Assembly: GCA_031272775.1 (NCBI GenBank)
Contig: JAISTB010000005.1
Coordinates: 62,001 to 126,000 of the forward strand
DNA: 64,000 bases
Source of the DNA: Fusobacteriaceae bacterium
GTDB lineage: Bacteria; Fusobacteriota; Fusobacteriia; Fusobacteriales; Fusobacteriaceae
Reading direction: 5' to 3'
Shown here: positions 15,727 to 20,876 of the stretch, one piece after another
Layout of the letters: every line of letters starts with the position of its first letter
Position numbering within the stretch: position 1 is the first letter of the stretch
Made by a program: the position numbers and the translations under genes
The notes under the pieces: generated by a model
What the model was told of the DNA's origin: nothing
Seen by the model: only the letters and a program-made list of their open reading frames with translations
Databases searched by the model: none

Positions 15727-16875
15727 ATGCAGAACCGCGCCGGAAACTGGAAAAAAAATCTGACCGGGGAATTGTCTTTTCTCTCCTTTGTGCCCGCGCC
15801 ACTGCCTCCGGATCCGCCGATCGCATTGAGCGATGAGCTTTCGGGGCTTCTTTCGGACGCCAACAGGCAAATCGCGAAACTGGATGCCATGGCCGCCTTT
15901 ATCCCCGACGTCAACCTGTTTGTTTCCATGTATGTGAGAAAGGAAGCGCTGATGTCTTCCCAGATCGAAGGAACGCAAGCCACCCTTGAAGATATTCTCG
16001 ATCCGGCCGTCGAACAGAATACAAACCGGAATGTGGCCGATGTCATCAACTACGTCAAAGCCATAGAGTTTTCAACGCAACGCTTGCGGGAACTGCCCCT
16101 TTGCAATCGCTTGCTCAAAGAAACCCACGCGATCCTTATGGAAGGGGTCCGGGGACAGGAAAAAAATCCCGGAGAATTCCGCCGCTCGCAAAACTGGATC
16201 GGCGGACAAGGCAGCACTTTGAAAAACGCGCGCTATATCCCCCCCGCGCCGACGGATATGGAGACCGCCATGTCCGATCTGGAAAAATACATGAACGAAG
16301 ACAATCAACAGGATCTTTTGATTCAAGCGGCGTTAATCCATTATCAATTTGAGACCATCCACCCCTTTTTGGATGGCAACGGTCGAATCGGCCGCCTTTT
16401 GATTCTCCTTTTCCTCATGGAAAAAAAGCTCCTTGTGAAGCCCGCCCTGTATATTTCTTATTTCTTGAAAAAAAATCGGGTGGAGTATTACGACCGGATG
16501 ACGGAAGTCCGGATCAAAGGAAATTACGAGCAGTGGATTCGTTTTTTTCTCGACGCGCTGGTCCAATCCGCGTCGGACGCCTCGGAAACCATCATGAAGC
16601 TGCTTTCTTTGCACGAAAAAAACTCGGGCATGCTAAACGCCCGGGCGAGAACTTCAAAGCATGTGTTCACGCTCTTTTCCTACGTGGAATCCAATCCCAT
16701 TATCAATATCCAAAAAACGGCAAAAGCCTTGGGGCTTTCCTACGGAGGGGCGTCCGGCGCAGTAAAGCGGCTGACGGAAGCGGAGATTCTTGTCCGGATG
16801 AACGGGAATCGACGAAACCGGATTTTCGCTTATCAAGCGTATCTGGATATTCTGAAAGAGGGGACGGAGATGTAA
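15727..16875 (+). CDS. Fic family protein with C-terminal winged helix
   Basis: A 382-residue protein with an N-terminal Fic_N region, a Fic domain and a C-terminal winged helix-turn-helix (about 305-375). The catalytic motif HPFLDGNGRIGR starts at H212. The inhibitory helix motif S/T-x3-E-G is present as S77 to E81-G82 before the Fic core, as in class II, self-inhibited Fic enzymes. Such proteins usually transfer AMP or a related group to a hydroxyl side chain; the target is unknown. AAGGAGG precedes the ATG. The upstream region is A+T-rich with two tandem dyads, suggesting autoregulation and possibly an acquired gene. Confidence 0.9.
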   Translation: MQNRAGNWKKNLTGELSFLSFVPAPLPPDPPIALSDELSGLLSDANRQIAKLDAMAAFIPDVNLFVSMYVRKEALMSSQIEGTQATLEDILDPAVEQNTNRNVADVINYVKAIEFSTQRLRELPLCNRLLKETHAILMEGVRGQEKNPGEFRRSQNWIGGQGSTLKNARYIPPAPTDMETAMSDLEKYMNEDNQQDLLIQAALIHYQFETIHPFLDGNGRIGRLLILLFLMEKKLLVKPALYISYFLKKNRVEYYDRMTEVRIKGNYEQWIRFFLDALVQSASDASETIMKLLSLHEKNSGMLNARARTSKHVFTLFSYVESNPIINIQKTAKALGLSYGGASGAVKRLTEAEILVRMNGNRRNRIFAYQAYLDILKEGTEM

Positions 16876-16980: not shown

Positions 16981-17706
16981 GTGATTCGATTGGAGCGAAT
17001 ATTGACGCAGGATCTGCTTGCCTGGAAAAAAAGACTTTGATTTTGTCCGAATAGCGCAAAACGCCATCTATCAGAATTATATCGCGGACATGGCAAAATA
17101 TTCCACGCCTGCGGACGCCATCAAAACCATTGCCGTATATGACAGCATTCCCGTGCAGTTGGCCAAAGAGAATAAAAAATTCCCGTATCGCCTGATCAAA
17201 AGCGGCGTGCGGGCCAGCGCCTATGAATTTTCGATGGATTGGCTCAAAAAAGCGGGCGTTATCATTTCTTGCAACAAAATCACGGAAGGACAGGTTTCGC
17301 TGGATTATTACAAAGATCAATCCTCTTACAAGATTTATCTGTCCGATGTCGGTCTGCTGACCGGCAAAAGCAATCTGCCGGCATCTCTCATCCTTGCGGA
17401 CTCCTCCATCGGCAGCGGCGTCAAAGGGGCCTTAACCGAAAATTATGTGGCGCAGGAACTCGTGGCGGGCGGGCATATTCCCTTTTATTGAGAATCCTGC
17501 GGAAAAGCGGAGTTGGATTTTGTGATTCAACGCAAAGAAGAAATTCTCGCGATTGAATGTAAATCTGCCGAAAGCGTCAAGGCCAAAAGCTTGAACCTGT
17601 TTTTGAAAAAATACAACCTTCCCTGGGGAATCCGGATTTCCGCCAAGAACTTCGGTCTGGCGAATCAGAAAAATCGGTTCCCTTGTACGCGGTTTTCTGC
17701 ATTTAG
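16981..17706 (+). pseudogene. Degraded DUF4143-type AAA ATPase
   Basis: The remnant starts as a normal family N-terminus (VIRLERILTQDLLAWKKR from GTG 16981) and hits a stop at 17038-17040 beside a poly-A run. A shifted frame then continues with the C-terminal half (DMAKYSTPADAIKTIAVYDS onward), so the Walker A region is missing. A TGA at 17489-17491 sits where relatives have Trp (PFY-stop-ESCGKAELDFVIQ). A further frameshift after about 17670 is needed to reach the expected end KSVPLYAVFCI at 17706. These lesions (deletion, frameshifts, nonsense codon) mark it as dead. It is related in family to the intact ATPase at 7928. Confidence 0.85.
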
Positions 17707-17738
17707 AAAACTCCTCCCCGGGTATCCCGATTCTCCCC

Positions 17739-17768
17739 TTGCGCGCGCCCCCATTTGTCTGCTATAAT
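17739..17768 (+). promoter_or_regulatory. Promoter of the M20 amidohydrolase
   Basis: TTGCGC, 18-base spacer, TATAAT, 41 bases before the start codon. Confidence 0.5.
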
Positions 17769-17808: not shown

Positions 17809-19035
17809 ATGACAAAAAAACAGGAAACCGGCGGATTGGCAAAGCTGCAAGGGCGGGCGGCAAAGCTCGCGGACGAATACCGGAAAGAATTTGAAGCGAT
17901 CAGCGATTATATTTTCAAGCATCCGGAACTGGGACTGGTGGAAGTAAAATCGGCGGCTTATCTGACGGGCAAGCTGCGGGAACACGGTTTCACGGTCAAG
18001 GAAGATTACTGCGGATTCCCTACGGCCTTCCGGGGGGATTTCGGAGACAAAAAAGGACCGGCAATCTGCTTTCTCCCCGAGTATGACGCCCTTCCCGGCT
18101 ACGGGAAAAACAAGGACAGGAACGGACACGCCTGCGGACACAACTGGATCGCGGCGGCTACTCTGGGCGCGGCCATTGTGCTCGCGAAAATGAAAGAAGA
18201 TTTTCCGGGGCGGATCGGCGTCATCGGAACCCCTGCCGAGGAAACGCTGGGCGCCAAGGTCAACATGGTCAATGACGGCGCTTTCAAGGATATCGACGTC
18301 GTGTTTCAGGTGCATCTGGGCGACAAGACCAATATCGCCACCCGGGCTCTGGCCATCGATTCGCTGAAATTCGAATTTTTCGGAAAGACGGCCCACGCCT
18401 CGGCCTTTCCCGAAGAGGGGATCAACGCCCTCGACGGCGTCAACCTCATGTACGCCGGGATCAACGCCCTGCGCCAGCATGTGACTTCCGACGTAAGGAT
18501 ACACGGCGTGATCCGAAACGGCGGCCTCGCCCCCAATATCGTCCCCGATTACGCGTCCTGCGAGTTTATGATCCGGGCGGAAAAAAGGGAATATCTCGAT
18601 ACCGTGACGAAGAAAATCATCAATTGCGCCAAGGGCGCCGCGCTCATGACAGGCTGCAAAATGAAATTCTCCCCCGTGGACAATCCCTTTGACAATCTCT
18701 TGAATATCCCGGCTTTGCAGGATCTCATGGCTGAAAATCTCACGGCCGCCGGCGTTACGGACATCTGTCGCGGCGTTCCGGGCGGGGCGGGTTCCTCGGA
18801 CATCGGAAACGTCAGCAAGGTCGTCCCCACCATGTATACGGAAATCGGCGTCAAAACCGAAGAAAACTGCTTTGTGCACAACGAAGCCTTTCTCAGGTAT
18901 GTCAATTCCGAACAATCGAATCATTTGTTGAATCAAGCGGTCAAAGCCATGGCAACAAGCGCGCTGGCGCTCTACACGAACACGGAACTGATGAAAACCG
19001 TCCGGCGGGAATTCAAGGAATTGAGCGGAAAATAA
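17809..19035 (+). CDS. M20-family amidohydrolase (AbgB/PM20D2-like)
   Basis: A 408-residue zinc amidohydrolase. Metal-binding motifs include EYDALPGYG with NGHACGHNW near 95-110 and the glutamate pair in GTPAEETLGAK. The lid-domain histidine lies in FFGKTAHASAFPEEGINALD. The branch resembles AbgB and eukaryotic PM20D2, which hydrolyses beta-alanyl-lysine and related peptides, but bacterial substrates vary. GGAGAAG precedes the ATG. The next gene is a transporter under lysine riboswitch control, making an acyl-lysine or lysine peptide a plausible, unproven substrate. Confidence 0.85.
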   Translation: MTKKQETGGLAKLQGRAAKLADEYRKEFEAISDYIFKHPELGLVEVKSAAYLTGKLREHGFTVKEDYCGFPTAFRGDFGDKKGPAICFLPEYDALPGYGKNKDRNGHACGHNWIAAATLGAAIVLAKMKEDFPGRIGVIGTPAEETLGAKVNMVNDGAFKDIDVVFQVHLGDKTNIATRALAIDSLKFEFFGKTAHASAFPEEGINALDGVNLMYAGINALRQHVTSDVRIHGVIRNGGLAPNIVPDYASCEFMIRAEKREYLDTVTKKIINCAKGAALMTGCKMKFSPVDNPFDNLLNIPALQDLMAENLTAAGVTDICRGVPGGAGSSDIGNVSKVVPTMYTEIGVKTEENCFVHNEAFLRYVNSEQSNHLLNQAVKAMATSALALYTNTELMKTVRREFKELSGK

Positions 19036-19061: not shown

Positions 19062-19105
19062 ATTATCATATAATCTATATATTATCAATCCTTGACAAAA
19101 AGTTG

Positions 19106-19111
19106 TATAAT
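19106..19111 (+). promoter_or_regulatory. -10 box of the lysine riboswitch transcript
   Basis: TATAAT with a TTATCA-like -35 about 18 bases upstream. A consensus TTGACA (19092-19097) also lies nearby and could pair with GTATCA 17 bases later. Either start would include the complete aptamer. Confidence 0.5.
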
Positions 19112-19131
19112 ACGGTATCAATTTAACAAAA

Positions 19132-19265
19132 AGAATAGAGGCGCAAATGACAAGAGTAGGCGGATGACCGCCGAAAGGGGATTTTGCCGAAACGGAAGAA
19201 ATTTCGTTGGGAATACAAAGAACATTTGTATTACTGTCATCGGGGGACCGATGGAGAGCTATTCT
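19132..19265 (+). ncRNA. Lysine riboswitch (L-box) aptamer
   Basis: The RNA carries the ordered conserved blocks of the L-box: AGAGGCGC, AAGAGUA, GAAAGGGG, GCCGAA, GGGA, a GGAGAGCUAU 3' strand, and a closing P1 helix AGAAUAG/CUAUUCU (19132-19138 with 19259-19265). The helices P2 (GGCGG/CCGCC), P3 and P4 (AAUACAAA/UUUGUAUU) can all be drawn. It lies upstream of a YfcC-family transporter and is followed by an intrinsic terminator, so lysine should switch the transporter off. Confidence 0.93.
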
Positions 19266-19310
19266 GTGGAATATTGAAAACGAAGTTGCTCCGCAATTTG
19301 TTTTCCCATG

Positions 19311-19339
19311 ACACAGGTGTAGCCGCCTGTGTTTTTTTA
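19311..19339 (+). terminator. Riboswitch expression-platform terminator
   Basis: ACACAGG/CCTGTGT stem with an 8-base loop followed by seven T. It lies 46 bases after the aptamer and 54 bases before the transporter start, the place expected for lysine-induced premature termination. Confidence 0.85.
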
Positions 19340-19392
19340 TCCCGGCAACATACGAAGCAAATAATTTTATTTTCTCAATTGGAGGGCGTATC

Positions 19393-20796
19393 ATGGCAGA
19401 AAATATCGAACAGAACAAGAAGACTTTCAAAATGCCGCACACATTTGTCCTGCTGATCGGCTTGCTGATCATCGTGGCCATCCTGACCTGGATCATTCCG
19501 GCGGGAGAATTTACCAGAGAGCGCAATGAAGTACTCAAGCGCACGCTTGTGGTACCCGGGTCATTCAAGTATATCGACAGGACTCCCGTGGGACCCTGGG
19601 GCGTTGTGCTGTCTCTCGTCAAGGCCATGCAGGCCGTATCGGACATCATTTTCTTCATTTTCTTCGCTTACGGTTCCATCTATATGCTGATCAAGACCGG
19701 CGCTTTCTACGGCGGTCTCGGAAAACTCATGAAGGCCATGCACGGATCGGAAGCCGTGATTTTTCCGGTGTTCATGTTCTTATTCGGGATTTGCGGATCC
19801 ACATTCGGCATGTATGAGGAAACCTACGGACTGATTCCGGCCTTTATGGGAATCTCCGTGGCGCTGGGCTATGACGCCCTTGTGGGAGGCGCGGCCGTCA
19901 TATTGGGCACGGCAACGGGCTTTGCGGCGGCGACGCTGAACCCCTTCACGATCGGGGTCGCCGCAGGGATCGCGGAGTTGCCGCTCAAAAACGGGCTCCT
20001 GTTCCGGATCGTTTGCTTCATCGTGTTCGAAGGAACGGCAATCCTCTATTTGATGCGCTACGCGAAAAAAGTCCGGGAAAACCCCGATTCTTCCCTCGTC
20101 AAAGGCCTGGATTTCAAATTCTCGGCCGGCATGACCCGGGAGCAGATGGAAGAGCTGCCCTTTACGACCAAGCACAAGCTGACGATGCTGACCTTCCTCG
20201 CCTGTGTGGTTATGCTGATCGTCGGCGTAATCAAATGGGAGTGGTACATCAATGAGCTTTCGGCCCTCTTCATTATCACGATGATCGTGGCGGGACTCAT
20301 CAACGGCTTTTCCTTCAGCAAGATCGCCTCGACCTTTGTGGAATCCATATCGGACGTCGTGTTCGGCGGACTGGCCGTCGGAGTCGCCCGTTCGCTCACG
20401 ATTGTCATGACCGACGGTCATATCATCGATACGATCATCAATTCCGTGGCCAATCTGATCGCGTCCCTGCCCAAGGCCGTCTCCTCCATCGGGATGGTCA
20501 TCGTGCAAAATTTCATCAATTTCTTTATCCCCTCGGGCTCGGGACAGGCCGCGGCTTCCATGCCGATCATGGCCCCGCTGGCCGATACGATCGGGATCAG
20601 TCGGGAAGTGGCGGTTTTGGCCTTCCAGTTCGGCGACGGCTTCTCCAACATGTTCTGGCCCACCTGCTGCGGAACGCTCTGCGGGCTGATGAATCTGCCG
20701 ATCGACCGCTGGTACAAGTTTATCACGCCGCTCTTCGCGATCATGGTGGCCTATCAATTTATCTTTATTTCCGTCGCCAGTTTTATCTTCAAATAA
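19393..20796 (+). CDS. YfcC/DcuC-family transporter under lysine control
   Basis: A 467-residue membrane protein with about 12 helices belonging to the YfcC / C4-dicarboxylate anaerobic carrier-like group (PF03606). Recognisable stretches are TWIIPAGEFTRE near the N-terminus, GMYEETYGLIP, GTATGFAAATLNPFTIGVA, and the C-terminal IPSGSGQAAASMPIMAPLAD and CCGTLCGLM. Members transport dicarboxylates or basic amino acids (ArcD-like). The lysine riboswitch upstream argues for lysine or a lysine derivative, most likely import, since it would be shut off when lysine is plentiful. GGAGGG precedes the ATG. Confidence 0.88.
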   Translation: MAENIEQNKKTFKMPHTFVLLIGLLIIVAILTWIIPAGEFTRERNEVLKRTLVVPGSFKYIDRTPVGPWGVVLSLVKAMQAVSDIIFFIFFAYGSIYMLIKTGAFYGGLGKLMKAMHGSEAVIFPVFMFLFGICGSTFGMYEETYGLIPAFMGISVALGYDALVGGAAVILGTATGFAAATLNPFTIGVAAGIAELPLKNGLLFRIVCFIVFEGTAILYLMRYAKKVRENPDSSLVKGLDFKFSAGMTREQMEELPFTTKHKLTMLTFLACVVMLIVGVIKWEWYINELSALFIITMIVAGLINGFSFSKIASTFVESISDVVFGGLAVGVARSLTIVMTDGHIIDTIINSVANLIASLPKAVSSIGMVIVQNFINFFIPSGSGQAAASMPIMAPLADTIGISREVAVLAFQFGDGFSNMFWPTCCGTLCGLMNLPIDRWYKFITPLFAIMVAYQFIFISVASFIFK

Positions 20797-20845
20797 ATTT
20801 TCTTGAAGAGCAAACCCCGCGAGCTCAGAATAGCGCATAAATTCA

Positions 20846-20876
20846 GGCGTCCTTTGTGAAGAAGGACGCCTTTTTT
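20846..20876 (+). terminator. Terminator after the YfcC-family gene
   Basis: GGCGTCCTT/AAGGACGCC strong stem followed by TTTTTT. Confidence 0.88.

Follow-up and report, generated by a model that had tools for sequence, protein, structure and literature searches.

A compact lysine riboswitch precedes a YfcC/DcuC-family carrier gene beside an M20D hydrolase gene in a Fusobacteriaceae bacterium

Results

In the 64,000-nt stretch of Fusobacteriaceae DNA analysed here (the window), a genuine lysine-sensing RNA precedes a carrier gene, and both the RNA and its wiring to that gene are secure. We put a probability of about 0.75 on the reading that the RNA is an OFF-type lysine riboswitch governing a YfcC-type carrier of basic amino acids, which would import lysine or a lysine conjugate. 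A preliminary description had placed an L-box at 19132-19265 and proposed a search of the leader with RF00168. That covariance model matched positions 19128-19269 (+ strand) over its full length (1-182) at 98.7 bits (E = 5.5e-25; gathering score, 30 bits), i.e., within a few bases of the coordinates first given. The alignment retained the junction core (AGAGG.GC, AGUA/GAAAGG, GCCGAA, UGG, CUGUCA, and UGGAG.GCUA), and the aptamer comprises P1, P2a with loop E, a short P2b, a short P3, P4 with a five-base loop, and P5. The source genome (2.09 Mb, 41 contigs) contains exactly two L-boxes, this one and another before lysC; a lysA-like gene is also present and scores just below the curated cut-off. 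The earlier account of the locus had recognized the aptamer, terminator, and carrier, and had overlooked both the M20D hydrolase and how reduced the aptamer is.

Two TATAAT hexamers (19069-19074 and 19106-19111, + strand) mark a putative promoter region by consensus match only, the search having returned 7 such sites vs. 3.2 expected in shuffled sequence. Unconstrained folding of the leader gave an antiterminator (19257-19324, + strand; MFE, -76.0 kcal/mol) in which GCUAUUCUGUGG, made up of the 3' strand of P1 and the next bases, pairs with the stretch around CCAUGACACAGG, which shares bases with the terminator's 5' arm. The pair probability of CUGUG:CACAG within this structure was 0.97-1.0. 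When P1 was enforced, the terminator formed instead (-71.7 kcal/mol), and the two folds are mutually exclusive. The intrinsic terminator (19310-19337, + strand), GACACAGGUG-UAGC-CGCCUGUGUU followed by a U-tract, has a 10-bp stem at 19310-19333 and a U-tract that runs to about 19337, essentially where it had first been drawn (19311-19339). In a sister species whose YfcC protein is 96% identical (L003), the aptamer is kept and the terminator stem is conserved at the same position. Comparison of that aptamer with 19128-19269 showed six two-sided compensatory changes, in P1 (1), P3 (2), and P4 (3), and no broken pairs among the helices counted.

Since the P1/terminator fold excludes the antiterminator, the layout is that of an OFF switch acting by termination. 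When lysine is scarce, the antiterminator would fold, polymerase would read through, and the carrier would be made. Bound lysine would hold P1 closed and keep its 3' strand out of the antiterminator; the hairpin at 19310-19333 could then form and transcription would end ~55 nt short of the start codon. The leader is thus best read as a termination switch that shuts down import of lysine, or of a conjugate that yields it. We infer lysine binding, the direction of transport, the substrate, and also the direction of regulation, the last because folding energies ignore lysine and co-transcriptional kinetics.

The gene behind the terminator (19393-20796, + strand) starts with ATG just downstream of a GGAGG ribosome-binding site and encodes a 467-aa secondary carrier. 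As had been proposed, the product belongs to the YfcC/DcuC family: it matched PF03606 (DcuC) over residues 14-461 with E = 3.8e-84 and 283.3 bits (gathering score, 23.1). We do not apply the strict YfcC equivalog label, since the score against NF008611 (286.5 bits) fell below the 500-bit cut-off. The nearest carrier (96% identity) belongs to a Fusobacteriaceae MAG. A terminator-like site follows the gene (20845-20876, + strand) and suggests that the riboswitch transcript holds a single gene. A fold predicted from a 40-row alignment (pLDDT 82.6, pTM 0.80) grouped the carrier within the IT superfamily, with AbgT-type YdaH and MtrF, INDY/NaDC, ArsB, membrane parts of TRAP systems, and a model of MleN; a fold predicted from the single sequence was useless (pLDDT 40.7). 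Against 9a59_A, the deposited model of the MleN-MetQ complex, the carrier model gave Z = 26.1 and 3.8 A over 399 residues, and we take this MleN to be a member of the NhaC family. The only credible solved structures reached by sequence profiles from the carrier were those of AbgT proteins (4r1i, 1.8e-8; 4r0c, 1.3e-6). The predicted IT fold, being shared so widely, says nothing about the substrate.

The preliminary description had also proposed a survey of other YfcC genes for L-boxes. Scoring as a pair any L-box on the same strand and at most 400 nt upstream of a YfcC-family gene, we found 10 loci in 98 Fusobacteriota genomes (G000, G051, G026, G027, G028, G029, G019, G016, G025, and contig C3 of G030), where 0.032 would be expected by chance. 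Related species are not independent, and the number of lineages therefore weighs more than the number of pairs. On two YfcC trees, the L-box label required four and five changes, and the starred branches force at least three and at least four of these, which indicates that the pairing is found repeatedly, in distinct lineages of the carrier; losses may account for some of the changes. In the G025/G030 lineage, an L-box-controlled protein from G030 reaches 746 bits against the curated YfcC model (cut-off, 500), and three Clostridia loci (G404, G528, and G504) show the same pairing. The link is not universal, since the nearest carriers outside the group (L004-L014, 46-56% identical, in other Clostridia and Spirochaetes) have no L-box; nor does the orthologue in G030 (62%). 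Among the 11 G098-family genomes, no L-box stood beside a YfcC gene.

Other L-boxes and leaders seen in the survey are recorded here as separate observations. The strongest L-box of the Fusobacteriota set (L016, G036:C18:17744-17923; 128.7 bits) lies ahead of a gene of amidohydrolase/D-aminoacylase type (best model NF006560, with a score under the cut-off), which is not a known lysine gene. Another (L121, G030:C39:5394-5564) lies ~370 nt upstream of a gene resembling gamma-glutamyl-GABA hydrolase (below cut-off); given that distance, this unusual target could be a misassignment. A third (L117, G446:C20:7748-7924) precedes a KCE gene of lysine fermentation (NF052387, above cut-off), a known type of target. 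In one Clostridia genome, a YfcC-family gene is preceded by a match to Rfam SECIS_4 (L133, G532:C1; 58.6 bits).

Upstream of the aptamer, separated from it by 92 nt, lies a gene (17809-19035, + strand) for a 408-aa M20D hydrolase. The protein carries the M20 motifs GHACGHN, PAEET, VHLGD, and VHNEAF, and among proteins of solved structure it is closest to HmrA (1.5e-72) and the Xaa-Arg dipeptidase (2.3e-57), which we take to be PM20D2; the next best match was 7.8e-15. Motifs and closest relatives together place it in the subfamily of HmrA and PM20D2. Besides its Xaa-Arg substrates, PM20D2 cleaves beta-alanyl-lysine. Since the gene lies upstream of the riboswitch transcript, it is outside the control of the riboswitch. 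Farther upstream, at 15727-16875 and 17018-17767, inspection by eye showed what is probably a Fic-type protein, together with parts of a DUF4143-like ATPase ORF that is apparently split between two frames.

M20 genes adjoin many YfcC-family genes. Hydrolases beside L-box-controlled carriers formed one clade (support, 84/89) that includes one member without an L-box, and support rose to 99/99 once two more such members were included. The clade spans loci of Fusobacteriaceae and Clostridia, while the carriers of those hydrolases do not form one group: the M20D protein of the Clostridia loci is 54% identical to that encoded at 17809-19035, the carriers only 33%. The hydrolase is thus a steadier partner than the carrier, which favours lysine-containing conjugates as the substrate. 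Gene order varies, being M20D, L-box, YfcC in the organism's own genus and in g5, and L-box, YfcC, M20D in G016, G404, and G528. The hydrolase is not always needed, since in the G025/G030 lineage no M20 gene lies beside the L-box-linked YfcC gene. Alongside the aptamer and the mutually exclusive folds, the recurrent link among L-box, YfcC carrier, and this hydrolase subfamily stands established at the level of sequence and comparison.

Discussion

Lysine or a lysine derivative had been proposed as the ligand of the carrier. Comparative evidence supports both lysine control and such a cargo; the arrangement itself is not new, since a review of riboswitches in C. difficile from 2024 describes an L-box before CD3100-3099, i.e., a yfcC gene annotated "basic amino acid antiporter" and an M20D amidohydrolase gene (PMC11477304). 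The present locus therefore adds one more example to an arrangement already on record. As in C. difficile, the L-box directly precedes a YfcC-family carrier gene and an M20D gene adjoins; however, the C. difficile hydrolase lies downstream, within the riboswitch operon, whereas here it lies upstream of the riboswitch. Two of the Clostridia loci (G404 and G528) share the C. difficile layout. Clostridia-type carriers belong to another YfcC lineage, and the aptamer described here differs in being compact.

A 2017 survey of L-box-controlled transporters lists LysP, GabP, LysW, YvsH, and LysXY, and PF03606 is absent from its COG table (PMC5584792). The genes lysW (NhaC family), lysP/gabP, yvsH, and lysXY resemble the present case in that a single transporter gene follows an L-box, but they belong to other sequence families. 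The pairing of a carrier with an M20D hydrolase also recalls AbgT with AbgA/AbgB, in which uptake of p-aminobenzoyl-glutamate is coupled to its hydrolysis, although AbgT is only remotely related to our carrier. The substrate of the Abg system is an acidic folate fragment, and we know of no riboswitch that controls it. Overall, we consider the association of riboswitch and carrier to be low in novelty, whereas the compact aptamer and the link to the hydrolase are modestly new.

Like the canonical aptamers of B. subtilis lysC and T. maritima, the RNA at 19128-19269 has a five-helix junction, loop E in P2, an L4 loop, and the core consensus; it differs from them in its periphery. P2b (GGCGG-AUGA-CCGCC, 14 nt) and P3 (AACGGAA-GAAA-UUUCGUU, 15 nt) are closed short hairpins. 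No L2-L3 kissing pairs were found between them, the best P2b/P3 complement being 4 nt, and P2 offers no room for a K-turn. A kissing loop and K-turn are usual peripheral features of L-boxes, and the Rfam threshold requires neither. By comparison, L2 and L3 of the genome's other L-box, the one before lysC, match perfectly over 10 bp (CCGGATCAGG/CCTGATCCGG, 10/10). The RF00168-matched length is 142 nt here and 143 nt in the sister species, vs. 164-186 nt for most other Fusobacteriota L-boxes among the matches listed, and the gap sits in P2b/L2 and P3/L3. In the L-boxes studied, the L2-L3 kissing loop is reported, on the basis of earlier mutational work, to be indispensable both for function and for termination to be efficient (PMC3764141). 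Since that contact is absent here, the aptamer may respond weakly.

Such trimming to short stems, with loss of the L2-L3 contact, is what one would see if the aptamer were decaying and regulation had been lost. We regard decay as very improbable: every core motif is retained, two species share the compact form and differ by compensatory changes in their P1, P3, and P4 helices, and the terminator is conserved. Moreover, compact L-boxes occur in other genomes, where, by sequence inspection of the targets, they precede an NhaC-like gene (G050, Fusobacteriaceae) and lysC-, lysA-, and dapA-like genes (Clostridia). The form is therefore found repeatedly and is not confined to transporter genes, and an initial notion that compact L-boxes are transporter-specific was dropped. 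The example in G050, a different Fusobacteriaceae genus, spans 153 nt with no notable L2-L3 complementarity and precedes a probable LysW carrier (L123/L088, G050:C21). An exact-pattern search for compact L-boxes in 341 Clostridia genomes returned six matches, and the number was similar when the pattern was run backward as a control. Four of the six were full-length, RF00168-positive L-boxes with GAAAGG repeated inside L2, and two (L085 and L087) had no RF00168 match. Because compact forms whose motifs had changed escaped the exact pattern, we claim no frequency for compact L-boxes. We found no published description of the compact form in the part of the literature covered, and we do not claim the first.

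As to function, we infer with good reason that the substrate would be lysine or a lysine derivative, but lysine might instead be only the signal, with the carrier exchanging other basic amino acids (arginine/ornithine, as ArcD does) or exporting lysine. The preliminary description had called the substrates of the carrier family mostly unassigned or dicarboxylates. NCBIfam already names the family "putative basic amino acid antiporter", which speaks for exchange, and the C. difficile review likewise terms YfcC a putative antiporter of uncharacterised function (PMC11477304). The switch, however, is predicted to be OFF with lysine, so import is favoured over export. The hydrolase that recurs as its partner belongs to the Xaa-Arg dipeptidase family and, by eye, no arc genes adjoin the L-box-linked loci listed; exchange or export thus appears unlikely. 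A different account would make the carrier incidental and the locus a stray piece of the lysine pathway, with the M20D protein acting as a biosynthetic N-acetyl-diaminopimelate deacetylase. Such deacetylases are M20-family enzymes, and the protein does match broad M20 models. Yet the E-values of HmrA and PM20D2, its nearest solved relatives, are over 40 orders of magnitude better than those of YxeP-type enzymes, DapE/ArgE models give no more than 1e-12, far under cut-off, and the riboswitch stands before the carrier gene rather than the hydrolase gene. We think this account improbable.

Lysine-controlled import thus remains the preferred reading, the cargo being lysine itself, a lysine-containing dipeptide, or an N-acyl-lysine. 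The adjacent M20D enzyme would free lysine from either conjugate after import. More tentatively, L-box, YfcC carrier, and M20D subfamily may form a lysine-salvage module in which Xaa-Lys dipeptides or N-acyl-lysines are imported and lysine is released inside the cell by the hydrolase. The constant partner in such a module would be the hydrolase and not the carrier, and so the hydrolase would mark the substrate; in the source genus, the riboswitch would work without an L2-L3 kissing loop. The presence of a compact and a full-length aptamer in one genome offers a natural test of whether lysine sensing needs the kissing loop and K-turn. For a widespread and uncharacterised carrier family, the locus provides a testable substrate, and the adjacent hydrolase suggests itself for the first assay.
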